DNA of 64,000 nt from Ligustrum vulgare. Its lineage: Eukaryota; Streptophyta; Magnoliopsida; Lamiales; Oleaceae. Positions 3,800 to 56,790 of this stretch are shown here, in pieces (positions within the stretch are counted from its first letter, which is position 1; each line of letters begins with the position of its first letter). The DNA is taken from assembly GCA_963555705.1 (NCBI GenBank), contig OY743169.1, forward strand, positions 52,314,124-52,378,123, given 5' to 3'. Position numbers and translations under genes: made by a program. The notes beneath the pieces are model-generated. The model was not told the DNA's origin and did no database searches. It saw only the letters and a list, made by a program, of their open reading frames with translations.

Positions 3800-4626
3800 C
3801 GTTATCAGCATGATTCTCTAAAATTATTAGAAGGTAATTTTTATTTTTTTTAGTTATAATCATCTGTCATGTATATCAAAATTAATTTGATAACACATGA
3901 ATTTTTTTTAACTGCATCACGGCGAGGTCAAGCTTGTTCAATTTGGAATCTGATTCATGGAGCTTGATTTTTTTTAGTCCAAATCATTACCATTCCAAAT
4001 CAGTTACTGCATAATCCGAATCCAATTCAATTAAAAATCTGAATTCAATTCATTCCCAAATCACAACCATTCATTGGGTTGCGTTATTGTATGCTTAATT
4101 GTTGAATTTGTTGACCTATGGTCAATTTGACCTTATTGTTTTGATCATAACAAACAAGAATTTATTGTGTTACTAACAAGTGTGCTTCAAGTGTTTCATG
4201 TAATGATAAATATTCAAAGCACTCTATGTTCAAATCGTCTCTCAAAGATATAAATCAAAATTATGTGATCGAGCACATGAGACGCAAAGAAGATCATGAA
4301 AGAATTGAAGATATTCAAAGATCAAAATTGAGGTTGAAAAGCATGACATGAAGATCAAGAATTCAAGCATACAAGATTAGAGTTGATTTAACATATGTAA
4401 AGGTTTATCACTCTCAATCTTTAGCGATGAAATTCAAAGAGCTCGAAAATGATTTTTATGCATCAAGAAACTTACTTGAAAATTCATCACTTGCATAAAA
4501 TATTTTCATCTTAGTCAAGATTGTCTTTCAAATGTTATTTGATCTTAAATCATGATTATACTATGTTAAACCACTTTGAAAAATAAGTTAGAAACCTAAA
4601 AATCGAAAATTTTCATATTTTTCAAA

Positions 4627-4815
4627 AGTCAACAGAAAGTCAACGGTCAACAGTTGACTTTCGGTCAACCGAACTATTTCGGTCGACCGAAATTTTGGTC
4701 AACCGAAATATTTCGGTCAACCGAAAGTTAAACGGTAAAATTGTAACGGCTATATGGAAGATTCGGTCGACCGAAACTCCAAATTTGGTCGACCGAAACT
4801 GGCTGAACTTGAATT
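4627..4815 (+). promoter_or_regulatory. LTR enhancer-like cluster: W-boxes and GGTCGACC palindromes
   Basis: Seven W-box cores (TTGACY or its complement) lie between 4627 and 4720: AGTCAA at 4627 and 4638, GGTCAA at 4645, 4663, 4697 and 4715, and TTGACT at 4654. Three more sit at the LTR start (4111, 4120, 4127). Mixed in are TTCGGTCGACCGAA palindromes (around 4678, 4762, 4787). W-boxes are bound by WRKY factors that respond to pathogens and stress. The block ends just before the TATA box, where an enhancer would be expected. The 3' LTR copy (about 10648-10818) is 18 bp shorter because one palindromic unit is missing. Confidence 0.6.
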
Positions 4816-4823
4816 TTTTCATC

Positions 4824-4832
4824 TATAAATAG
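4824..4832 (+). promoter_or_regulatory. LTR TATA box
   Basis: TATAAATAG, the best TATA match in the LTR; the 3' LTR copy is at 10827-10835. It would place transcript start near 4855. Confidence 0.6.
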
Positions 4833-5467
4833 CCATCACATTTGCATTCAATAAGAACAACTTAGATAAGATTTTATACACACTTTCTTGTGAAAATTCA
4901 GTGTTCTTACTTAGTTTTTATTCATCTTTTTATTTTCATAAAACTTTGATTGATCTAAACTTTGTTTTATCAAATTCATCAAAGTTTTTGGAAGAAAGTT
5001 TTGTGAAGATTCTTGGTTTTATATTGTTTAAACTTCTTCAACATCTTCACACAATATTGGAATTGAAGTGTAAGTCTCTCTTTGTTCTAAACTTGTTTTA
5101 ATCTTTTAAAAGAGAGAAATTCCAATTAAGGAACTTTGATTATTTGTGCTACATTTTTCATTATCATTTGATTCATCAAAGTTCCATTGCCTAAACACTT
5201 TGAGCTTAACTTATTGTTAATTATTCAAGTGTGGCATCTCTTGGTACGTAATTTGATTCAATATTTTTAACAAGAGATTATTTGAAAAACTTTGTTTGAT
5301 TGCATCAAACTTTTCATTATCATTTGCATCAAAGTTTTTCTCTAACACTCGAGCTTAATTCATTGCTATCTATTGAAGTGTTAGCCTAACTCTCTCGGTA
5401 CTTAATTTGAGTATATCATTTGTCAAGAGAGTTATTTCAATTGTACATTCAATTCATTATATCTTGT

Positions 5468-5597
5468 GGTTTCGAGAGCCTTGTGAAAACTCGATTGTTG
5501 GTTTTCGAGAGCCTTGTCAAAACTCGATTGTTGGTTTTCGAGAGCCTTGTCAAAACTCGATTGTTGGTTTCGAGAGCCGTGTGAAAACTCGATTGTA
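5468..5597 (+). repeat. 33-bp tandem repeat in LTR, four copies
   Basis: The unit TTTTCGAGAGCCTTGTCAAA plus ACTCGATTGTTGG occurs four times (32-33 bp each), with slight variation in the first and last copies. It is repeated in the 3' LTR at 11471-11600. It lies in the transcribed part of the LTR. There are no unique spacers, so it is not CRISPR-like. Confidence 0.9.
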
Positions 5598-6015
5598 AAA
5601 GGATAGGCGCTCCTTGTTGTAAGTCGCCTAAGGATTTGGTACTCCTTGTTGTAAGTTACCAAAATAGTGGATTTGGCCTTGCTCGTGACGGAGAGCTCGG
5701 TAACGGGGGACGTAGATCACGTTGGTTGATTGAACCTCCATAAATCGCGTTTGCACTCTCTCATCCCTTTTATTTACTTACATTGCACTTACTCTATTCT
5801 ATCAATTTACATTGTGCAACGCTTTATCTTAGTGCTATACTTGCCTTATCAATTAAGTTTACACTTATATAGCACATTACATTGATAGTTTAGTTACTTG
5901 TAACACTAAGTGCTATTACTTGTACCTATTGGTTTTTAAGTGTGAGATTATTATCGAAAAAGTTTTATAAACCAATTCACCCTCCTCTTGGTTAGTTTAC
6001 TCTTGGGCTAATAAT

Positions 6016-6027
6016 TGGTATCAGAGC
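6016..6027 (+). other. Primer-binding site of the young element
   Basis: TGGTATCAGAGC, an exact match to the common initiator-Met tRNA primer site, two bases after the LTR end. Confidence 0.9.
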
Positions 6028-6067: not shown

Positions 6068-6985
6068 ATGGCTAACCATAATCTTGAGGGGCATTCTACA
6101 AATCGTCCTCCTTTCTTTGATGGTACAAATTATAATTATTGGAAAACTAGAATGATGATTTTTATTCAATCCATTGATTATAATATTTGGGATGTCATTG
6201 AATCCTGTCCTCATAAGCTTACTATGGTCATTAAGGTTGATGGAAAACCGGATCAAACTATTTTAAAACCTAGAAAGGAATATGATGAAAATGATAGGAG
6301 GAAATTGACTCTAAATGCTAGGGCCAAAAATATACTTTATTGTGCTTTGGATATTAATGAATTTAATCGTATTAGCACATGTGATTCCGCACACGATATT
6401 TGGCATGCTTTAGAAGTCACACACATGGGCACAAATAAAGTGAAAGAAACTAAGACAAATCTTTTATTTAAAGATTTTGAAAATTTCTTTATGAAGCAAG
6501 ATGAGCCCATTACTTGCATGATTACTCGCTTTACCGACATTGTCAATGGTCTTAAAGGCTTTGATCATAAATTTTCTAACGGTGAACTTGTGAGTAAAAT
6601 TCTTAGGTCTCTCTCCCAAGATTGGAATCCATTGAGGATGTTGATCGAAAACATGATAGACGTCAACACACATCCATTGGAGGAGCTTTATGGAACATTG
6701 ATGACTTATGAGCTCAACAATGCCGAAACAAAGGAGAGGACAAGAAAAGGAAAAGAAGAGGCCAAGCGCGAAATTGCTCTTAAATCATCACATGGTCACA
6801 AAAGTACCAAGTGTCGAAGCAAGAAAATATTTTTCAAAAAGAAACCTCTACAAGCCACTTGGGATGAAAGTGATGATGAGCAAGATGAAGATGATAGTCA
6901 AGATGAAATGGCCAACATGTGCTTCATGACTATTGAGGATGAGGTAAATTTCTTTTATACATCTTGGACTTTAAATTATCAATGA
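6068..6985 (+). CDS. gag: Copia Gag (UBN2-type), damaged zinc knuckle
   Basis: A 305-residue capsid-type Gag of the SIRE/Maximus kind. It starts at the first ATG after the PBS. Residues 13-27 (RPPFFDGTNYNYWKT) are the typical start, followed by the UBN2 domain (about 60-200, with SAHDIWHALEVTH and LRSLSQDWNP). Near residues 244-253 only the second half of a CCHC knuckle is left (GHKSTKC); the first CxxC pair is missing, as after an in-frame deletion. A KKPLQATWDE segment and an acidic stretch follow, then the frame ends. Gag would assemble the particle that packages element RNA. Without the knuckle RNA binding may be weak, and no pol follows. It is either a poor Gag or simply carried along. 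Confidence 0.85.
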   Translation: MANHNLEGHSTNRPPFFDGTNYNYWKTRMMIFIQSIDYNIWDVIESCPHKLTMVIKVDGKPDQTILKPRKEYDENDRRKLTLNARAKNILYCALDINEFNRISTCDSAHDIWHALEVTHMGTNKVKETKTNLLFKDFENFFMKQDEPITCMITRFTDIVNGLKGFDHKFSNGELVSKILRSLSQDWNPLRMLIENMIDVNTHPLEELYGTLMTYELNNAETKERTRKGKEEAKREIALKSSHGHKSTKCRSKKIFFKKKPLQATWDESDDEQDEDDSQDEMANMCFMTIEDEVNFFYTSWTLNYQ

Positions 6986-7375: not shown

Positions 7376-7689
7376 TGGGAATTTCTTTTTATTTTCAATA
7401 TTTTCATACACAATCCCTAAATGACTTGAAATCATCTTCTTCTCTTCATAAAACTCTTGTAATACATTTCTTTGATCACTTATTTTTTGGCTTTGAGAGT
7501 GATATGATTGTTGACCAAAATTGTTTTGATATGTCGACAAAATGCATTACCCTTTAACTCATTTCATGATAACAATTACTTCATAGTCAAACATAGATAT
7601 TATTATTTCTCATGAAAGAGTACAGACTAGAGTCACACTTGAAAGGAAATACATGGAACACGCAAATGCTAAAGAGAGAAACATGGAAA

Positions 7690-7921
7690 GTCCTCAAAAT
7701 GAGAGATGTGTTTCCGGAGTAGCCGTATCCTACCACCTCTGATCTTTTGAGGAAACAAAGACAAACCTTCAAAGAGGTGTGTTTCGAGAGTAAAAATACT
7801 CCGTAATCTACCACATTTGAAGTACACACACAAGATTTAAACATTAAGGTAATCCTAGGAAATTAGAGGGGTGTCTCAAGAGTGAGTATACTCCGTACTC
7901 TACCCCCACCTATTTTAGGAT
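7690..7921 (-). other. Three related small hairpins downstream of LOG
   Basis: Below the LOG stop codon (minus strand), a unit of about 60-100 bp recurs three times. Each has a short hairpin: GAGTAAAAATACTC at about 7787, GAGTGAGTATACTC at about 7880, and an imperfect GGAGTAGCCGTATCC at about 7716. Each is followed by a TCTACCAC-like box. They would lie in the 3' untranslated part of a LOG transcript. Repeated 3' stem-loops are common in viral RNAs, but their function here is not known. No poly(A) track is seen. Confidence 0.5.
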
Positions 7922-8575
7922 TCACAAAGTCAAATTTACATTAACCGGACTCCACTTTCGCTTGACTCCCCTTCCTTGCGACCAATCTACCTTTAAACCT
8001 GCTGGATCTTGTATTGGGATATATGACTGCAGCTTATCCAGTAGTTCATCAATAGTAGGAGCAGAAATAAGGATCCTTCGGGAAAATGGAGAGATGAATC
8101 CTTGTTCCACTGCATGATCAAGAAAGGTTAACAAACCATCAAAGAAATGGTTAACATTTAATAGCCCAATAGGCTTAGTATGGAGATCTAGTTGAGCCCA
8201 GGAGGTAATATTAAAGATTTCTTCTAAGGTGCCAAAACCTCCGGGCAGGGCTATAAATGCATCAGATTCATATAACATACAAGTTATGCGTTCGTGAATA
8301 GATAAGGTTTGTACTTCATGACCTCGTGTTTTGCCTGCTATATCTGCTAAAGGGACAGGAATAACTCCAATCACCCTTACTTTCTCTGTAAGAGCATATT
8401 GGGAAACACAGCCCATCAGACCACTGCTACCTCCTCCATACACAAGATTGATACCTTTCTCCCCCAGTTTCTTTCCAAGGTCTACTGTTGTCTCAAGATA
8501 CCCAAAACCTTTCCCCACATGTGATCCACAAAATACACATACAGTTTTGATCTGTCTAAGTTTTGATCCCTCCAT
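7922..8575 (-). CDS. LOG: LOG-family cytokinin riboside 5'-monophosphate phosphoribohydrolase, intronless
   Basis: A 217-residue intact ORF, the usual LOG length (about 210-225). LOG enzymes hydrolyse cytokinin nucleotides directly to free active cytokinin plus ribose 5-phosphate in the cytosol. Visible motifs are CVFCGS (13-18), YGGGSSGLMG (46-55), an arginine in IHER (96) at the conserved active-site arginine position, and PGGFGTLEE (111-119), the PGGxGTxxE signature with catalytic glutamate. The usual GG loop before VIGVIP is replaced by residues EK. The tail has VDWSQGRGVKRKW, as in one plant LOG subgroup, so the origin is plant rather than bacterial. Plant LOG genes normally have several introns; this copy has none. 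It lies antisense to the retrotransposon, 250 bp beyond the viral-type ORF on the same strand. Expression and activity are unknown. Confidence 0.88.
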   Translation of the reverse strand: MEGSKLRQIKTVCVFCGSHVGKGFGYLETTVDLGKKLGEKGINLVYGGGSSGLMGCVSQYALTEKVRVIGVIPVPLADIAGKTRGHEVQTLSIHERITCMLYESDAFIALPGGFGTLEEIFNITSWAQLDLHTKPIGLLNVNHFFDGLLTFLDHAVEQGFISPFSRRILISAPTIDELLDKLQSYIPIQDPAGLKVDWSQGRGVKRKWSPVNVNLTL

Positions 8576-8825
8576 TTTTGAAAGAAAAGAAAGGAAAACT
8601 TACGAGAAGTTGTGATTTTGGGATGCATGAACTATGAAAACCTCTGGCTATTTAAAAACCGAAAAACCACACTATTTACGATCGTCTTTGAAAAAGGAAA
8701 GATTTACTTTTGTCAAAATCAACCTACTTTTGAATATTTTTATCGTATCGAGGTGTCACCTTTCGGCGATTTTTTTAAAACCGTTCTCAAAACTCGTGAA
8801 AGGAAAAAGTATCAAAAGATTTACC
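8576..8825 (-). other. Spacer between the viral-type ORF and LOG
   Basis: A 250-bp AT-rich gap on the minus strand between the stop of the upstream ORF and the LOG ATG. It has a pyrimidine-rich stretch just before the ATG (TTTTCCTTTCTTTTC). Plus-strand frames here overlap both genes and look like shadows. A subgenomic promoter or leader is possible but not shown. Confidence 0.4.
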
Positions 8826-9362
8826 TTATATCAAATGCTGAGTTGCCAAAACAGACTGGCAAACCGGATCTTTTGCGATTGTATTCTTGAGACTATATCG
8901 TTTTTTATCCTCGTTAAATTGAGCATATAAGGAAAGAAGTTCCCGTTGCACATATCCACTTGGGTGCGTCTCAAGAGTCAATCTAATATCATCCAAACAC
9001 TCCCTACTCAGTCCACCCTTTATGAAATCAATTTTATCATCTCGATTGTTAGATGAATATCCGACTGTTTTGCAACGAGTATCACAATTCCAACGAGCAC
9101 ATTTGTAGCAACCATTCAGCCTTTTTGCTCTTCGCTTCTTTGCAAAAGTGCTTTTACCCAAACCAGGTAGATGTTTAGGAAATGACAATGGTAATTCACC
9201 GGTTAATCGGACTTTTGCTTCTATTAACCAGCGCACGTCTTCTGGAAAGCCTTGAGCCATTAGCAACCTCAATCTTTCGAGCCTCATTCGATAAATTTTT
9301 CTCAGATCATTCATTGGAAGATTGGAATAATACTTGCGAATGCTTAAAAGGATGTTATCCAT
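8826..9362 (-). CDS. Cysteine-rich nucleic-acid-binding protein, betaflexivirus-like
   Basis: A 178-residue intact ORF. Residues 36-50 carry a FPEDVRWLIE-type helix, then KSTFAKKRRAKR (70-81), a strongly basic stretch, then a cysteine cluster C85-x2-C88-x4-C93-x3-C97, then DFIKGGLS (112-119). A basic arginine-rich run directly before a compact zinc-finger-like cluster, followed by an FI-x-x-G segment, is the layout of the small cysteine-rich proteins encoded near the 3' end of carla-, tricho- and vitivirus genomes. Those proteins bind nucleic acid and modulate infection or silencing. At 178 residues it is longer than most of them. It lies antisense to the element and in tandem with LOG. It could be an endogenous viral sequence captured from RNA. 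A host zinc-finger protein is the alternative. Confidence 0.6.
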   Translation of the reverse strand: MDNILLSIRKYYSNLPMNDLRKIYRMRLERLRLLMAQGFPEDVRWLIEAKVRLTGELPLSFPKHLPGLGKSTFAKKRRAKRLNGCYKCARWNCDTRCKTVGYSSNNRDDKIDFIKGGLSRECLDDIRLTLETHPSGYVQRELLSLYAQFNEDKKRYSLKNTIAKDPVCQSVLATQHLI

Positions 9363-9470
9363 TTTTTTGATGGATTTAACCTCTTCCCAACCGATCTATT
9401 TAAAGATGTAAAAGATCTGAGTAGTTCTTCATGATATTGATTCCTGCAAGATAATATGAAATAGAATAAT

Positions 9471-9731
9471 GAAAAGAGGGAACAAGATTTCATGCGCTGT
9501 AACTTTACTGTTAAAGGAAGATTTGATTTGCGATATCGAATATTTTTCTTGGATTTTGTACTGATATTTTTCAGTATAATAATATTCAAGGTATAAAGAA
9601 ACTGGGTAGATCCACATGCTGTTGAGTCCAGCGAGAAAGCAAGGGATAGAAAAATTGAAAAGAGGGAACCGGATTTAAATGCGCTGTAACTTTCACTATT
9701 AAAGAAAGATTTGATTTGAGATATGAGATTA
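9471..9731 (-). repeat. Pair of about 75-bp direct repeats upstream of the viral-type ORF
   Basis: Positions 9471-9545 and 9657-9731 share a unit (minus strand: AAATCAAATCTT, then GTTACAGCGCAT, then GTTCCCTCTTTTC) at roughly 80% identity, 186 bp apart. Neither copy resembles the LTR. On the minus strand the nearer copy ends about 110 bp before the ORF start. Duplicated promoter-like or leader segments are one reading. A TTATCTTGCAG sequence after the nearer copy also resembles a 3' splice site. Confidence 0.6.
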
Positions 9732-10129
9732 TACTGGAATACGTGAAACTGAATTTTGTGATATTTGGTAATTTTTCATGCTACGAATGCTTTACTAAGG
9801 GGGAATATGATTACACTCAAGATATTATACTTATGCTCATTATTATGCTTATCACACCTATGCTCATGTATAAGGGATAGATGCCACCTTTTTGCTTATG
9901 CCAAAAGGGGGAAAATATGGTGATGATTTGATTTAGCTTGAATTTGGATAATCTATATGCATGAAAATGATTAAATTATATGCTAGATTATGCATCATTG
10001 GTTTGTATAAGATAGGGGGAATATATGCTAAAATTAAACTTATCAATTATTCTTATTTCCCTATGCTCTTCAATTGCTTATATTATCATTACAAATCATC
10101 TTGTTTGTCATAATCAAAAAGGGGGAAAT
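9732..10129 (+). other. 3' internal region with several polypurine tracts
   Basis: No ORF. AAAAGGGGGAAAA (about 9904) and ATAGGGGGAAT (about 10013) precede the true tract AAAAAGGGGGAAAT at 10116-10129, next to the 3' LTR. Several upstream purine tracts are typical of SIRE/Maximus-type elements. Confidence 0.65.
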
Positions 10130-12016
10130 TGTTGACCTATGGTCAATTTGACCTTATTGTTTTGATCATAACAAACAAGAATTTATTGTGTTACTAACAA
10201 GTGTGCTTCAAGTGTTTCATGTAATGATAAATATTCAAAGCACTCTATGTTCAAATCGTCTCTCAAAGATATAAATCAAAATTATGTGATCGAGCACATG
10301 AGACGCAAAGAAGATCATGAAAGAATTGAAGATATTCAAAGATCAAAATTGAGGTTGAAAAGCATGACATGAAGATCAAGAATTCAAGCATACAAGATTA
10401 GAGTTGATTTAACATATGTAAAGGTTTATCACTCTCAATCTTTAGCGATGAAATTCAAAGAGCTCGAAAATGATTTTTATGCATCAAGAAACTTACTTGA
10501 AAATTCATCACTTGCATAAAATATTTTCATCTTAGTCAAGATTGTCTTTCAAATGTTATTTGATCTTAAATCATGATTATACTATGTTAAACCACTTTGA
10601 AAAATAAGTTAGAAACCTAAAAATCGAAAATTTTCATATTTTTCAAAAGTCAACAGAAAGTCAACGGTCAACAGTTGACTTTCGGTCAACCGAACTATTT
10701 CGGTCGACCGAAATTTTGGTCAACCGAAAGTTAAATGGTAAAATTGTAACGGCTATATGGAAGATTCGGTCGACCGAAACTCCAAATTTGGTCGACCGAA
10801 ACTGGCTGAACTTGAATTTTTTCATCTATAAATAGCCATCACATTTGCATTCAATAAGAACAACTTAGATAAGATTTTATACACACTTTCTTGTGAAAAT
10901 TCAGTGTTCTTACTTAGTTTTTATTCATCTTTTTATTTTCATAAAACTTTGATTGATCTAAACTTTGTTTTATCAAATTCATCAAAGTTTTTGGAAGAAA
11001 GTTTTGTGAAGATTCTTGGTTTTATATTGTTTAAACTTCTTCAACATCTTCACACAATATTGGAATTGAAGTGTAAGTCTCTCTTTGTTCTAAACTTGTT
11101 TTAATCTTTTAAAAGAGAGAAATTCCAATTAAGGAACTTTGATTATTTGTGCTACATTTTTCATTATCATTTGATTCATCAAAGTTCCATTGCCTAAACA
11201 CTTTGAGCTTAACTTATTGTTAATTATTCAAGTGTGGCATCTCTTGGTACGTAATTTGATTCAATATTTTTAACAAGAGATTATTTGAAAAACTTTGTTT
11301 GATTGCATCAAACTTTTCATTATCATTTGCATCAAAGTTTTTCTCTAACACTCGAGCTTAATTCATTGCTATCTATTGAAGTGTTAGCCTAACTCTCTCG
11401 GTACTTAATTTGAGTATATCATTTGTCAAGAGAGTTATTTCAATTGTACATTCAATTCATTATATCTTGTGGTTTCGAGAGCCTTGTGAAAACTCGATTG
11501 TTGGTTTTCGAGAGCCTTGTCAAAACTCGATTGTTGGTTTTCGAGAGCCTTGTCAAAACTCGATTGTTGGTTTCGAGAGCCGTGTGAAAACTCGATTGTA
11601 AAAGGATAGGCGCTCCTTGTTGTAAGTCGCCTAAGGATTTGGTACTCCTTGTTGTAAGTTACCAAAATAGTGGATTTGGCCTTGCTCGTGACGGAGAGCT
11701 CGGTAACGGGGGACGTAGATCACGTTGGTTGATTGAACCTCCATAAATCGCGTTTGCACTCTCTCATCCCTTTTATTTACTTACATTGCACTTACTCTAT
11801 TCTATCAATTTACATTGTGCAACGCTTTATCTTAGTGCTATACTTGCCTTATCAATTAAGTTTACACTTATATAGCACATTACATTGATAGTTTAGTTAC
11901 TTGTAACACTAAGTGCTATTACTTGTACCTATTGGTTTTTAAGTGTGAGATTATTATCGAAAAAGTTTTATAAACCAATTCACCCTCCTCTTGGTTAGTT
12001 TACTCTTGGGCTAACA
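10130..12016 (+). repeat. 3' LTR of the young element (1887 bp)
   Basis: TGTTGACC...GGCTAACA. Identical by eye to the 5' LTR except for loss of 18 bp in the palindrome cluster, one C-to-T change close by (AAACGG to AAATGG), and the intact CA end. Confidence 0.95.
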
Positions 12017-12164
12017 GAATTGCGTCCATATTTCCAATTGATTCTTCTATTTTTTCCAAATTTAATTAATATTTCCGAATTACATAAATTTTGTGCCATA
12101 ATTTTATGTTTAGTTGATGCGTTATTCACATATGTATTTTACATATTATGCATATTTAATGAAT

Positions 12165-13970: not shown

Positions 13971-16900
13971 ATGAATGATCAGGATATCTGTTTAGTCGAT
14001 AGTGTAACTACACATATTATTCTTCAAGACAAAAAATATTTCTTGAACTTAACATTATCAGAGAATAATGTTAATACAATATCAGGTGCATCAAAAATCG
14101 TTGAAAGCTCCGGAAGAGCTTGTATTATTTTATCAAATAATACAAAAATTATATATTGACGATGCACTTTATTCTAGCAAATCCAGAAGAAATTTGCTTA
14201 GTTTTAAAGATATTCGCTGCAATGGATATCATATTGAGACGATGCATGAAAATAATGCAGAATATCTTTACATAACTTCTTTTATATCTGGCCAGAAGCA
14301 GATAAAAGAAAAACTTTTGGTACTCCCTTGTGGCATGTATTATACATCTATAAAGATGATTGAATCAAATATTATCACGAACCCGAAGTTCGTTGATCCA
14401 AAAAATTTTATACTTTGGCATGATAGACTTGGACATCCAGGAACAATAATGATGCGCCGAATAATTAACAACTCGCATGGACATCCTCTAAAGAACCAGA
14501 AGATTTTTTTACCTAATGATTATCCATGTGTTGCTTGTTCGCAAGACAAGTTGGTCATTAGACCTTCAACTACAAAAGTCAACATTGAATCTCCAACTTT
14601 CTTGGAAAGAATTCATGGAGATATATGTGGGCCAATACACCCACCATGTGGACCATTTAGATATTTTATGGTTTTAATTGATTCATCTACTAGATGGTCC
14701 CATGTTTGCCTACTTTCCACTAGGAATGTAACCTTTGCTAGACTACTTGCTCAAATTATAAAATTACAAGCTCAATTCCCTGATTACTCAATCAAGAAAA
14801 TCCGTCTTGATAATGCTGGTGATTTTAGATCACAGATATTCAATGATTATTGTATGTCAATTGAAATTGAGGTTGAACATTCAGTTGCTCATGTCCATAC
14901 ACAAAATGGATTAGCTGAGTCGTTTATCAAACGTCTACAATTAATTGCTAGACCATTACTCATGAAAACAAAACTTCCAACTTCTGCTTGGGGTCATGCC
15001 ATATTACATGCTGCATCATTGGTACGTTTAAGACCAACTGCGTATTATCAATATTCTCCTTTGCAACTTGCAATTGGTCATGCGCCTAATATTTCTCACT
15101 TACAAGTTTTTGGTTGTGCCATCAAAGTCCCAATTTCACCCCCACAACGTACCGAAATGGGTCCCCAACGAAGACTTGAAATTTATGTTGGTTTTGATTC
15201 ACCATCAATAATAAGGTATCTTGAACCTTTAATGGGTGATTTATTCACTGCACGTTTTGCAGATTGTCATTTTGACGAAATGACTTTCCCAACCTTGGGA
15301 GGAACAAAACTACATCCTGAAAAACATGGTAAAATTTCGTGGAATGAAACAACTTTGTCTCAGTTTGATCCCCACAGCAATCAATTTGAGCAAGAGGTTG
15401 GAAAAATCATTCTTTTGCAAAAAGTTGCAAATCAATTACTGGATGTATTTGTTGACACAAGAAAAGTGACAAAGTCACATATACCAGCAGAAAATATTCC
15501 TGCACAAATTGATGTCCCTGAAGGACAATCTGCTGTAGCAAATGAGTCTCAAATACGTCAGAAGCGTGGTCGACCAGTTGGTGCTAAAGACTCTGTACCT
15601 CGAAAAAGAAAAGTGCAAGAGAAAAACAGACCAAAAACTTTAGAAGAAGTAGTATTTGAAAAGATTGATCAATCGGATATTGAGAATATGGTTCTTGCAG
15701 AACCACAAGTATCAGAAAATAATGAGATTTCAATAAACTATTTAGTATCTCATAAACTATGGGAAAGAAATACTATTGTCATAGATGACATTTTCGCCTT
15801 TAATGTGGATCTTGAAATAATGAAAGATGAGGATCCTGAACCACTGTTTGTGAAAGACTGTCAGCATAGAAATGATTGGCCAAAATGGAAAAAATCCATA
15901 CAGGCGGAGTTAAATTACTTAGAGAAACGAAAAGTATTCGGACATGTAGTTCGAACACCTGAAAATGTAATCCCTGAAGGATACAAATGGATTTTTGTAA
16001 GGAAAAGGAATGAAAATAATGAGATTACAAGATACAAAGCTCGACTTGTAGCGCAAGGTTTCTCTCAAAGGCCATGAATTGATTATGAGGAAACGTATTC
16101 TCCCGTAATGGATACTATCACTTTTAGATTCTTAATTAGTTTGACTGTGTCACAAAGGCTTGATATGCGCCTTATGGATGTAGTAACTGCCTATCTATAT
16201 GGTTCACTTGATAGTGACATATACATGAAAGTCCCTGAAGGACTCAAAATTCCAGAAGCAAATAATACATGCCCGAGAACTATGTTCTCTATTAAATTGC
16301 AAAAATCATTATATGGATTGAAACAATCCGGACGCATGTGGTATAATCGCCTTAGCAAATATTTGTTGAATGAGGGTTATAAAAATGATGACATTTGCCC
16401 TTGTGTTTTCATAAAGAAAACAAATAGTGGATTTGCAATTATTGCAATATATGTGGATGATTTAAATTTGATTGGAACCCCTGAAGAGCTCAATAAAACT
16501 GCAGATTATTTAAAGAATGAATTTGAGATGAAAGATTTGGGAAAAACTAAGTTTTGTCTTGGGTTGCAAATTGAACATTTCCCAGAAGGATTATTTGTTC
16601 ATCAATCTTCTTATACAGAAAAAGTTTTAAATCGTTTTTATATGGATAAAGCACATCCATTGACATCCCCTGTGGTTGTTCGATCATTTGATGTGAAAAT
16701 AGATCCATTTCGTCCACCTGAAGATGGAGAAAAAATTATTGGTCCTGAAGTACCATATCTTAGTGCAATTGGAGTGCTAACATATCTTGCAAATTGTACT
16801 CGACATGGCATAGCTTCTTTTGTAAATCTCCTTGCAGATATAGCTCTACACCAACTCAAAGACATTGGAATGGTGTTAAACACATTTTTCGATCCCTAAA

Positions 16901-52925: not shown

Positions 52926-54988
52926 TGATCCTATTATTCCTACTGGATGGTATGATGATGATGATGATTGCAGCAGATATTACAAAAAATGGGATTGGGA
53001 TAATAATCCTCCCCCATCTCCACTGCCAATATCCATGTTTCATCCACCAACTAGGGAAGACTTTCCTCCCCTGGAGACATTTGAAAAGGATCACTCTACT
53101 CACTCATGGAAGATAAAAAATCCAAACACTAGAAAGTCAGATGGATCAGTGCATCCACTCTCAGCAACAGAAGCTACCTTAAATTGGCAGACAGAAAATA
53201 CAACACAACAAAATGCCTTGTTAAAAAGGATTGATCAAAGTCAACAAAGGATTGAACAGACTCTTCAACATCAGACTCAGATTCTTCTCACACCTCTTCA
53301 AGCCTGTAAACAAAGAATTGAAACTCTCCATGTAGACATAATGGCCCGTTTGCAAAATCAACTACCTTTTGACGCTCAAGAAAGAGAAATCAGAAGCTTA
53401 AAAACTCAACTTACATCTCTCAAGTCAAACTCATTAATTCCTCCCTCAACACCATACTGCCCATCTTCATCTTCTACCATTCAAATCTCCCAAACAGGAC
53501 CCTTGGTTTCCTCTACCTATGAAGGATCTACATCAACCCTTTTTACACCAGAAGAATGGGAACAAAAGAAAAAAGCTTCTATGCCTCCTAAAAAGACCAA
53601 AGTTATCCAAAGAACAAAACCTCTATCCATACAAGAACCTCCATCATCTGAGAAACAACCTCAAATAATGATGAAAAATCCTATTTCCACATTCCTCCAA
53701 CAAGCCCATACTCTTCCTATTCATACTGCCACCAACAATTCTGAAACCTCTGAGTCTGAGTCTTCTGAATCCTTTGAAGAAACATCTAGTGAGTCTGAGT
53801 CTGAGGATGAAAATCCACCTCTTTATATGGCTGACCAATAACAAACAAGTCAATCGCCAAACTCAAAGAACGAATGACCCTATTATTGAAGAAACTGAAG
53901 TGGTTGATGAGGAGATGATGGAGTCCCATATGAATAATAATTATTATTCTTCAAATGGAGCTACTCCTCCTCCACAGTGGAAATACAGGATGCGAGAAAT
54001 GAAAGCTTGGTGTACTGCCGAACTCCAAAAGCCAAACATGACCCACACAAAAATCATAAAAGCCTTCTTGGCAAGGATCACAGGATTTCTCAAAGATTGG
54101 TATGATTCAATGGGAGAATACAGACAACGCCAACTCACACAGGAGATAAACACCACAGATGCATTCATGAATGTATTATATTGGGAATTCTGTGGAAAGT
54201 CTGATCATAACAAGGAAATTTCCAGAGAAGAATTCTTCAAATTAAAGTGTTGTTCTTATAATCCAAAAGAACTTGAAAAACATTTCAAGAATGCTGCTCA
54301 GAGATACTATCTCATTGGAGGTCTAGATGATTCAAATATTAAACAAGCATATCTGGAGTCAATTTCTCAACCTCTTGGGCAAGAGACACTAAGGACCATG
54401 GAGTTAAGAGGACAACCTTTAAATGCCACTTCTTTTGGAGAAATTCATAATTGGATAATGAAAATATTGAAGAAATTGTGCAACCAAAATGCTTTCCTCA
54501 AAGATATCAATGCAACTGGAAAAAAATTGGAGAAAGCTTGTGAGAAACCTTATTTGCAAATCAAGTGTGGCAGAAGCATGAAAGATTGCGAGTGCAGAGG
54601 AAAGAAAAAATTCCATAAGAGAAGAATAAAGCTTTCCCACAGAGAAGCTTTTAAGCCTTTTCGAAGAAAGAAAAAAATTCTCAGGAGGAAGTTTACAAAA
54701 AATAAAGGAAACGGGTGTTTCATCTATCGAAAGAAGGGTCACTTTGCAAAAGCTTGTCCAAATAAAAAGGACAAGATTCTTCATCAAATTTTCACAGTCA
54801 CAAAGATCGATTATGACGATGAAGATCTTGAATCATTATTCTATAAGGAAGATGAGCAAACTCAACAAACTATCTTCACTATTGAATATGATTCTGATGA
54901 ATCCATTGACACAGAAGACACAGGAGAATGCTATGGCATGCAATTTGTTAATACAGCCTTTTTCATCCATATCAGTATCTATGATTGA
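52926..54988 (+). pseudogene. Pararetrovirus capsid region, frameshifted
   Basis: An N-terminal linker and coiled coil (53035-53841; QQRIEQTLQHQTQ, then an acidic serine-rich tail) ends in a stop. The capsid core continues in another frame (53774-54988) with KWKYRMREMKAWC-like and FLKDWYDSMGEY segments. A nucleic-acid-binding box, CFIYRKKGHFAKAC (about 54714-54756), follows, in which the second cysteine of CCHC is tyrosine. A lysine/arginine-rich region precedes it. Two frames and the lost cysteine mark it as defective. Confidence 0.78.
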
Positions 54989-56790
54989 GGTTGAAATTTT
55001 TATAGGAAAATATGAAAAGCCCATTACAGTTGCAAGGTTATTTGATACTAGTGCTGCATGTTCCATCCTGAACCCTGCCATTCTCCCTGAACATATGTGG
55101 CAAAATCATCGACAAGTTTTTCAAGCGGCAAATGGAGACAGTTTCTCAATAGAAATAATCAGCAAGCCTGTTAAAATCCAGTTTTTCCCTGAACTCGGTA
55201 TTTCCCATAAATTACTAGGTTCATCTTTGCCTAGTAAAGATATTATCCTTGCATGGGATATTATCAAACAGTTATGGGAAAAGAAGGTTATTCCTTGTCC
55301 AAATGGTCTCAGGTTCAAGTCCTATTTCCAGCCATATATCCAAATGACATCTTATTTTTCCATAACCATTCCAAACATCACTGAAACACTTATCCGAGAT
55401 TGTTGTGCAGAATCTTATTTCGATTTCCTTACTAAATGCACAGATCCCCTCTGGAAAAATTCACAATTCTTCATTTCTCTCCCTTTCAAGAAAAATGAAG
55501 GTATCAACCCTACAAAAGCTAGCCACCTTGGAATGAACCCAGAACATCTTCAACTTGCTACCAAAGAACTTGCTCAATTGCAAGAAGAAGGGTTTATGGA
55601 ACCAACAAATTCACAATGGGCATGTCAACATTTCTATGTCAATAAAAGAAGTGAACAAGTTCGAGGGAAATTGAGATTAGTCATTGACTACAAACCACTG
55701 AATGTCTTTCTTGCAGATGATAAATTCCCTCTTCCTGATCGAAAAACAATGTTTGCAAATTTATCTCGTTCAAAGATCTTTTCAAAGTTTGATCTTAAAG
55801 CAGAATTTTGGCAATTAGGAATCAAACTAAAAGAAAGGCACAAAACAGCATTTTGTATTCCTAATTATCACTACCAGTGGACAGTGATGCCTTTTGGATT
55901 AAAGACTGCTCCTTCACTCTTTCAGAAAGCAATGACAAAAATCATTGGTCCATTATTGGAAACAGCGTTGGTCCACATTGATGACATCTTATTATTTTCT
56001 AAAGATGAAGAATCCCGTGCCAATTTGCTTTCTAAGTTCACAGATATTGTTAAACAATATGGTATTATGCTTTCCCAAAAGAAAATGGTGATCAGTGTCA
56101 ATGAGGCAGATTTCTTAGGGATGCATATTAAAGATGGTCAATATTCACTCCAGCCTCATGTTGGTCAAGAACTTCTTAAATTTTCAGATGAAAATTTGTC
56201 AAAAAAGGAAGTTCAACAATTCCTTGGAGTTGTTAATTATATGGCGGACTTCATTGATCATCTTTCATCCATAACTAAACCACTACAGCTCATGCTCAAA
56301 AAAGATCCTCCTCCATGGTCATCCACTCAAACTCAGGCAGTCAAATCTATCAAACTAAAGGTGAAAGATCTCTCAGCTCTACAAATCCCTACGGACGGAA
56401 AGTGTGTCCTTCAAACAGATGCAAGCGATTGCTTTTGGGCAGCTGTCTTACTTGAAGATAAAGGAGGAAAAAGAAGAATCTGTGGATACAAAAGTGGATC
56501 ATTCACTGAACTAGAAAAGTATTACCATTCCACTTTCAAAGAGATACTGGCGGTCAAAAGAGGAATTGAGAAATTCCTGTTTCATCTCATTGGACACAAA
56601 TTCTTAGTGGAAATGGATATGTCAGCTTTTCCGAAAATGCTCGCCTTTAAAAGGAAGCAAATCCCAAACTCTTAATTACTCAGATGGGTAGAATGGTTCT
56701 CAAACTTTGAATTCGAAGTTAAACACATCAAAGGAAAACACAACCTCTTACCAGATCTTCCTTCCAGACCAAAAGTTTCCCTCATACTAC
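54744..56790 (+). pseudogene. Pararetrovirus protease, reverse transcriptase and RNase H
   Basis: A long open frame (54744-56675). The protease box is LFDTSAACSIL (about 55040), with DTS where DTG is usual. RT has LRLVIDYKPLN (about 55672), FSKFDLKAEFWQLG (about 55787), MPFGLKTAPSLFQ (about 55888) and the catalytic VHIDDILLFSK (about 55972). RNase H follows with VLQTDASDCFWAAVLLED (about 56405) and KEILAVKRGIEKF (about 56540). A stop at 56673 interrupts the C-terminal end, which continues in frame as LLRWVEWFSNFEFEVKHI and DLPSRPK. The catalytic residues of RT are intact, but the split from the upstream frame and the stop make it nonfunctional as a polyprotein. Confidence 0.9.

Follow-up and report, generated by a model that had tools for sequence, protein, structure and literature searches.

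An antisense cassette of NABP-like and LOG-like genes in a young, gag-only Ty1/copia retrotransposon of Ligustrum vulgare

Introduction

Why should a retrotransposon without a polymerase gene carry a gene of the cytokinin-activating kind, and what keeps that gene in place? The question is raised by a stretch of 64,000 nucleotides of Ligustrum vulgare DNA (assembly GCA_963555705.1, contig OY743169.1, positions 52,314,124 to 52,378,123 of the forward strand), referred to here as the window. A sequence-only reading of the window had drawn attention to an intronless LOG gene antisense between gag and the 3' LTR of an element, in the place of pol. It had proposed that the gene arrived as RNA or cDNA and was spread by the element, either altering local cytokinin through its protein or silencing host LOG genes through siRNA.

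The carrier element

The gene lies within an element bounded by matching 5-bp target-site duplications, GAATT, at 4104..4108 on the left and 12017..12021 on the right. The two LTRs, which align with each other on the plus strand, are 1905 bp (5' LTR, TG...TA, 4109..6013) and 1887 bp (3' LTR, TG...CA, 10130..12016) long. They are 2 substitutions and 18 gap columns apart (K = 0.00106), which at literature substitution rates would correspond to an age of 0.04 to 0.08 Myr. Also on the plus strand are a primer-binding site read as TGGTATCAGAGC (6016..6027), which we take to be of the tRNA-Met type, a gag ORF of 305 aa and copia type (6068..6985; Retrotran_gag_2, PF14223, 1.6e-24) and a polypurine tract read as AAAAAGGGGGAAAT (10116..10129). 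No pol-sized frame is present between gag and the 3' LTR, where the longest stop-free run of the plus strand extends over 102 codons.

The LTR pair, target-site duplication, primer-binding site, polypurine tract and copia gag, together with the missing pol, are the full set of features of a non-autonomous Ty1/copia element; a Ty3/gypsy backbone was considered and failed on the copia gag (PF14223) and the primer-binding site TGGTATCAGAGC. The window element is a young, non-autonomous (gag-only) Ty1/copia element with an antisense accessory cassette of two genes.

Two further regions of the window deserve mention. A second Ty1/copia pol (integrase and RVT_2) lies near the element, at 14068-16899. 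The region 53035-56675 resembles, by eye, an endogenous caulimovirid fragment; one of its ORFs has a zinc-knuckle-like motif and matched no Pfam family, and another encodes a reverse transcriptase (PF00078, 4.7e-28) together with RNase H.

A LOG-like protein of a separate lineage

The LOG-like ORF encodes 217 aa on the minus strand (7922..8575); the complete antisense frame that the sequence-only reading had described, with its YGGGSSGLMG and PGGFGTLEE motifs, is confirmed. The protein matches the profiles PF03641 (3.2e-34) and TIGR00730 (5e-46) as well as the Arabidopsis protein At2g37210 (PDB 2a33; 1.6e-57), which we take to be LOG3. Its AlphaFold model (pLDDT 83.6) compares with 2a33 at a target TM of 0.95 and about 50% identity; LOG homology and the Rossmann fold are both present. 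The PGGxGTxxE signature occurs as PGGFGTLEE, at residue 111, and the pattern fits 108 of 121 LOG proteins of the cassette kind, window included.

Several features set these proteins apart. An Arg-Lys pair that precedes the LOG signature has a catalytic role. The Arg is kept in the window protein and followed by Ile; a Lys in this position is found in 5 of the 121 cassette-kind proteins compared with 118 of 120 canonical LOGs, so that the activity of the cassette protein may differ from the canonical one. Against the NCBIfam LOG equivalog NF058542, the window protein scores 100.6 bits, below the 300-bit cut-off. A terminal LxLxL is present in 93 of 121 cassette-kind proteins (window included), for which shuffling leads one to expect 0.28, and in none of 120 canonical ones; in 95 of the 121, a hydrophobic end of this type follows a basic pair. 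To our eyes the basic pair and LxLxL tail resemble a nuclear signal combined with an EAR repression motif; the window tail, VNLTL, is a degenerate version.

In a tree of 56 rows (40 of the 121 cassette-kind and 16 of the 120 canonical plant proteins), the two kinds split at 100/100 support; both sets were chosen by similarity, and intermediate lineages may therefore be absent from the tree. By these sequences, the cassette LOG forms a lineage of its own, apart from the canonical plant proteins in the sample. The product can be described as LOG-like in predicted fold and signature, and in view of the tree split, the LxLxL tail and the loss of the Lys it may not be a standard LOG; release of active cytokinin is possible. 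Relatives occur in other plants: 40 of the best 120 protein matches come from Reevesia pubescens, and others from Diplodiscus, Populus, Xanthoceras and Diospyros. Judging by their number, the Reevesia and other matches probably lie in elements too.

A NABP-like partner gene

Adjacent to the LOG-like gene and on the same antisense strand is a second ORF, absent from the sequence-only reading. It encodes 178 aa (8826..9362, minus strand) with a basic run and a C-x2-C-x4-C-x3-C finger, and it matches Viral_NABP (PF05515) at 1e-7 and Carla_C4 (PF01623) at 2.2e-5; its scores of 32.6 and 24.8 bits exceed the respective Pfam gathering scores of 23 and 20.9. These are nucleic-acid-binding protein families of carlaviruses and allied plant viruses.

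The protein is far from alone. With a threshold of E 0.01, a protein search recovered 249 relatives. Among the best 120 are annotated proteins from Populus, Acer, Xanthoceras, Orobanche, Striga and Hibiscus, and their clusters contain as many as 566 sequences, as expected of a repeat family. When 22 aligned members were scanned, Carla_C4 was found in 21 and Viral_NABP in 20 at E 0.01 or better. Among 121 NABP proteins, window included, 103 have the finger as C-x2-C-x4/5-C-x3-C and 103 have the basic run ahead of C-x2-C; we assume that this spacing differs from that of the carlavirus finger. A fold search with the poor NABP model (pLDDT 58) gave no match at E 0.001 or better, and a PDB search with the NABP profile returned nothing significant (best E 0.15).

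In a tree of 23 NABP rows, the Sapindaceae rows (Xanthoceras and Acer) pair, and the Orobanchaceae rows (Striga and Orobanche) fall apart, which argues that descent has not been simply vertical. The separation of the latter two, which share a plant family, could reflect old paralogues or a horizontal transfer.

Copies in the genome

The genome to which the window belongs (1.385 Gb in 51 contigs) was searched with both proteins and with gag. The best 150 of 9413 first-look candidates for LOG were scored, and all 150 match over residues 1-217, so that at least 150 loci, on 23 contigs, carry the full-length gene at 94-100% identity. Recurrence on this scale argues that the ORF is not a product of chance, and a one-off LOG insertion was rejected on the same count. 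An in-frame stop is seen in 19 of the 150 rows and none in the other 131, for loci scored by protein similarity; widespread disabling changes, which would have spoken against the sequence-only reading, are not what the copies display. That reading's picture of an intact, intronless, antisense LOG-like gene inside a very young polymerase-less element that spread it is thereby supported.

The scored loci form 119 clusters on the 23 contigs, and 15 of the clusters are tandem arrays with a spacing of 5.9-7.0 kb. The units are spaced almost identically, by about 6.05-6.13 kb, and might therefore share LTRs, at C11:7518362-7549302, C11:7690096-7708920, C8:45996943-46015774 and C2:24821575-24846671; ten scored loci lie within the two C11 arrays.

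The NABP query likewise found at least 150 loci, with a stop in about 65 of 150 rows. Of 30 copies that were read, 12 stop at codon 177, two residues short of the full length, and three are broken before that codon (a frameshift in L004, internal stops in L021 and L026). The two genes travel together: among the at least 150 LOG and at least 150 NABP loci listed, 126 of 150 scored LOG loci have NABP within 1.5 kb on the same strand, always 5' of LOG, and none has it on the other strand. The 30 best-scoring LOG loci, hereafter group A, include the window copy (L003). Read with 1.5-kb flanks, all 30 contain NABP sequence (one frameshifted) and 26 contain gag; LOG has a stop in one. At a further locus, L034, NABP is kept and LOG lost.

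Counted from gag, the share of element copies that carry LOG, a figure the sequence-only reading had called for, comes to 76 of the 129 loci listed (LOG up to 3.5 kb away and on the opposite strand), and LOG or NABP accompanies 89. Neither gene is seen among the matches listed at the remaining 40 of 129, so the cassette is not a part of every family member.

A second carrier and other settings

A group of more distant copies, group B, shows that the cassette is not tied to one element. In the loci L037-L040 and L048, LOG is 88-91% like the window LOG, and the cassette DNA is 79-84% identical in the five loci inspected; NABP in L037-L040 is 71-85% like that of the window over their pieces, while the L048 piece ends before the NABP gene. 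LOG has a stop in two of the five. In an 8-kb stretch around one locus of this group (L057), only the cassette is shared with the window element: homology covers window positions 7646-9404 at 80%, plus 9540-9594. NABP and then LOG follow each other on the minus strand, as in the window, in a different backbone. No pol was seen by eye in the short frames beside the L057 cassette; this backbone may be copia-like, and tblastn gave one weak hit (8e-4) between it and the integrase ORF of a copia element.

A third setting is provided by L002, where NABP begins about 190 bp downstream of an integrase ORF (PF00665, PF17921) on the same strand; this integrase we take to be of an Athila-like lineage. 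No LOG was found on this 3.3-kb contig. The sequence, L002:1-3330 (DAIEQH010000041.1), comes from a Nomurabacteria MAG bin and is read as plant contamination. With the window element, L057 and L002, the NABP gene stands in at least three settings. Sequence comparison identifies the cassette as a unit that has been amplified in the genome and is present in at least two unrelated backbones.

An origin of LOG from a nested Athila element was also considered and rejected: 10 of 91 Athila-like integrase loci, each taken with about 7 kb of the sequence downstream, lacked NABP. One of the ten, L048, has group B LOG and group B flanks about 6.7 kb off, on the other strand.

Outside this genome, LOG-match and NABP-match contigs of identical size and the same source (4511, 2128 and 1558 bases) were found among the best 120 rows of each search. 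This makes three same-size matches at 1250 bp or more compared with 0.19 per shifted control, after exclusion of two matches below 1250 bp that were too short for both genes; from the coincidence of size, the two genes are likely to be paired on these contigs. Five IMG/VR scans with LOG or NABP queries returned only L001, a LOG-like match of 29% identity.

A query with the Arabidopsis LOG (P0243) found at least 150 further loci in the L. vulgare genome, in a single frame, over most of the query and at about 50% identity, and none of those listed lies within 1 kb of the first 150-locus set. L037-L040 were drawn from these further loci, and L048 was met by another route. Host LOG genes with introns were not met among the best 150 loci of this query, all of which are near-full-length in a single frame.

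Edges and origin of the cassette

The sister elements L062 and L063 lack this cargo and represent the empty site, which in L063 reads ACTCATTTCATGCTAAAAATGCTTTACTAAGGGGGAAT. Since the stretch that they lack corresponds to about 7572-9773, the insert is an intronless cassette about 2.2 kb long (7572..9773, antisense to the element), an extent to which the homology of L057 also attests. A 10-bp direct repeat with one mismatch flanks it, TTTCATGATA on the left edge (7562..7571) and TTTCATGCTA on the right (9774..9783), as judged from L062 and L063. From its sequence, the repeat may be a target duplication or a microhomology used in template switching.

The edges also bear on the proposed arrival of the gene as RNA or cDNA, which would have the element capture one LOG mRNA. 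Inspection of the edge sequence revealed no poly-A tract, LOG travels with NABP and shared flanking DNA, and its lineage is separate from the canonical one (100/100 in the tree). Capture of a single LOG mRNA was therefore rejected, on account of the two genes, the shared upstream DNA and the edges without poly-A.

The position after gag has received other sequence as well. In L059, the gag of which is 99% identical to that of the window, the sequence diverges at the left edge of the cassette into hAT-transposase-like sequence; PF14372 matched L059:3525-3839 (2e-10), while no family was recognized in L059:2941-3582, the second piece scanned. The region concerned is L059:3005-3839 (contig C22, near 21837000), and a different cargo at the same edge makes the position look like a cargo bay.

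Within the cassette, a TATA-like TTTAAATAG lies on the minus strand upstream of each gene, about 34 bases ahead of the NABP ATG (9396..9404) and 73 ahead of the LOG ATG (8648..8656), as a putative promoter element. The NABP-side copy is kept in L057 together with a conserved GGGAAGAGG, and the LOG-side copy only in part. An imperfect duplication (78%; window 9400-9536 and 9585-9724) lies upstream of NABP and is possibly a promoter duplication.

Selection on the two proteins

dN/dS across copies, which the sequence-only reading had named as a check, was computed. Between groups A and B, LOG has a dN of 0.048 and a dS of 0.53, a ratio of 0.091 (30 x 5 pairs), and NABP a ratio of 0.159 (30 x 4 pairs). 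The ratios within group A are 0.12 for LOG and 0.27 for NABP, and pN/pS within group B is 0.25 and 0.21, respectively. LOG is the least divergent segment of group A (0.0087 compared with 0.014-0.044 around it), but its divergence and ratio within this group are biased because the 30 loci were picked as the best LOG scores. Copies found by other queries were compared as well: L048, met through the integrase query, has a LOG ratio of 0.117 against the window copy, and for copies selected through gag or NABP the ratios are 0.09-0.15 between groups and 0.17-0.78 for recent pairs. When the window is compared with L057, identity at the three codon positions is 0.90/0.97/0.75 in LOG and 0.92/0.89/0.66 in NABP, with 0.81 in the spacer. 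These comparisons indicate that purifying selection has maintained both proteins in the transposing lineage while single insertions decay. The genes also agree with the aORF-3R description, namely an antisense ORF before the 3' LTR that is conserved in many copies.

A passive cargo, caught by chance or by nested insertion and multiplied only with the element while its proteins go unused, is an improbable explanation. It would accommodate the hAT-transposase-like cargo at the same site in L059, the existence of cassette-less sisters, the ratios of 0.17-0.78 among recent copies and the stops in 19 of 150 LOG rows, but it is opposed by the deep dN/dS of 0.09-0.16, by the codon-position signal in both genes and by the 131 scored loci without a stop, and the dN/dS between backbones has already weakened it. 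That the cassette is a selected protein module is highly probable.

Constraint on the proteins could also be due to a benefit for the host, if copies domesticated for development or virus defence had given rise to the dispersed ones. LOG enzymes regulate meristems, and this family trait together with the strong constraint lends the idea some appeal; given that the constraint was measured between two transposing groups rather than at one fixed locus, and that no single-locus ancestor was identified, we consider it unlikely.

The third route is through RNA, with antisense or LTR-driven transcripts giving rise to siRNA against host LOG genes or the element, and with coding being incidental. Antisense dsRNA has been proposed for the antisense ORFs of LTR elements in general (excerpts of PMC7264820), but here the third codon positions are the freest, i.e. 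the constraint is on protein, and a cassette LOG with about 50% protein identity to At2g37210 is presumably too distant to share long identical stretches with host genes. The chance that RNA is what matters appears small, and silencing of host LOG genes by siRNA, as the sequence-only reading had envisaged, is unlikely given that identity and a conserved protein (dN/dS about 0.09).

A proposed mode of action

Overall, the best explanation, and a reasonably probable one, is a selected NABP-LOG module with a division of labour between its products, although the particular division outlined here is put forward tentatively. Each cassette gene would have a short promoter of its own and be transcribed antisense to the LTR transcript; such minus-strand reading is suggested by the TTTAAATAG that stands upstream of both ATGs. 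The NABP-like protein, with its basic run and Cys finger, may bind nucleic acids in the nucleus and thereby either dampen RNA silencing or reprogram the expression of host genes, a role proposed because viral cysteine-rich proteins do likewise. The LOG-like protein would raise active cytokinin, or work via its C-terminal LxLxL (EAR-like) tail, and could thereby favour dividing or meristem cells, where new insertions become inherited. Polymerase would be supplied in trans by an autonomous relative. A cytokinin activator next to a NABP-type protein would suit a module by which silencing is relaxed and cells are led to divide.

Relation to known systems

LOG-like genes in plant LTR retrotransposons have precedents. 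Steinbauerova et al. 2011 reportedly described two Athila-like elements with similarity to LOGL4. LOG (YgdH) domains occur in Ty3/gypsy consensuses of Citrus and Populus, likewise as an extra LOG-like ORF (PMC9289625, in part). The window carrier differs in being a gag-only Ty1/copia element with LOG antisense and paired with a NABP-like gene; the cassette is furthermore found in two backbones, with selection measured, and no NABP is named in the excerpts of PMC9289625. The same excerpts describe orchid Ty3/gypsy elements with an AlkB-like demethylase, a case in which an LTR element has fixed an enzyme domain also found in Betaflexiviridae, with another enzyme and in another element lineage than here.

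Antisense ORFs before the 3' LTR, present in most copies as in the window family, are known from maize Grande gene23, Retand ORF4 and RIRE2, and for gene23 a separate promoter and a product located in the nucleus are described (excerpts of PMC7264820). In contrast with these, both products of the window element belong to recognizable families, and pol is absent from the element. Extra ORFs of at least 250 codons have been recorded in 582 Ty1/copia elements (PMC6317226); both window ORFs are below that length, and neither LOG nor NABP is named in the portion of that paper drawn on here. Accessory ORFs of sunflower Tekay led to the suggestion, made in an abstract, that accessory proteins of LTR elements modulate RNA silencing (PMC11728184); unlike the window element, Tekay is Ty3/gypsy, and its ORF is at the 5' side and resembles double-stranded-RNA-binding proteins rather than viral NABP.

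On the viral side, cysteine-rich proteins suppress RNA silencing, and p12 of chrysanthemum virus B is a transcription factor that causes hyperplasia (PMC12172455, in part). The carlavirus NABP shares its Pfam families with the window protein, and a nuclear signal and zinc finger are named for it in the same excerpts. The window protein differs in being retrotransposon-borne and on a plant chromosome, and has the finger C-x2-C-x4-C-x3-C. Among the papers listed in searches of largely open-access literature, none was seen to report a retrotransposon NABP-like gene, a NABP-LOG pairing or a copia carrier; those listed for PF01623 deal with glyoxalases. The three appear to be new relative to the literature searched, whereas LOG in Ty3/gypsy elements was already known.

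Perspectives

A 2020 review describes the antisense ORFs of plant LTR elements as being of unknown origin and function, without clear protein similarities (excerpts of PMC7264820). Both antisense products of the L. vulgare element, unlike that description, have recognizable families with activities that can be tested. The family is of high copy number, the window copy is very young, and cassette-less sisters and two backbones offer natural controls. The manipulation of host hormones and silencing by retrotransposons via proteins, as viruses do, thereby becomes testable, and one may ask whether RNA viruses and retrotransposons have exchanged genes. From sequence, one may tentatively see the cassette as a virus-style virulence module, made up of a silencing suppressor or nuclear effector of viral type and a cytokinin activator with an EAR-like tail. 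It would move between unrelated element families (copia in the window, and for NABP the neighbourhood of an Athila-like pol in L002) and be selected for overriding host silencing and opening dividing tissue to transposition that is inherited. If this is true, viruses and retrotransposons would draw on one pool of host-manipulation genes.
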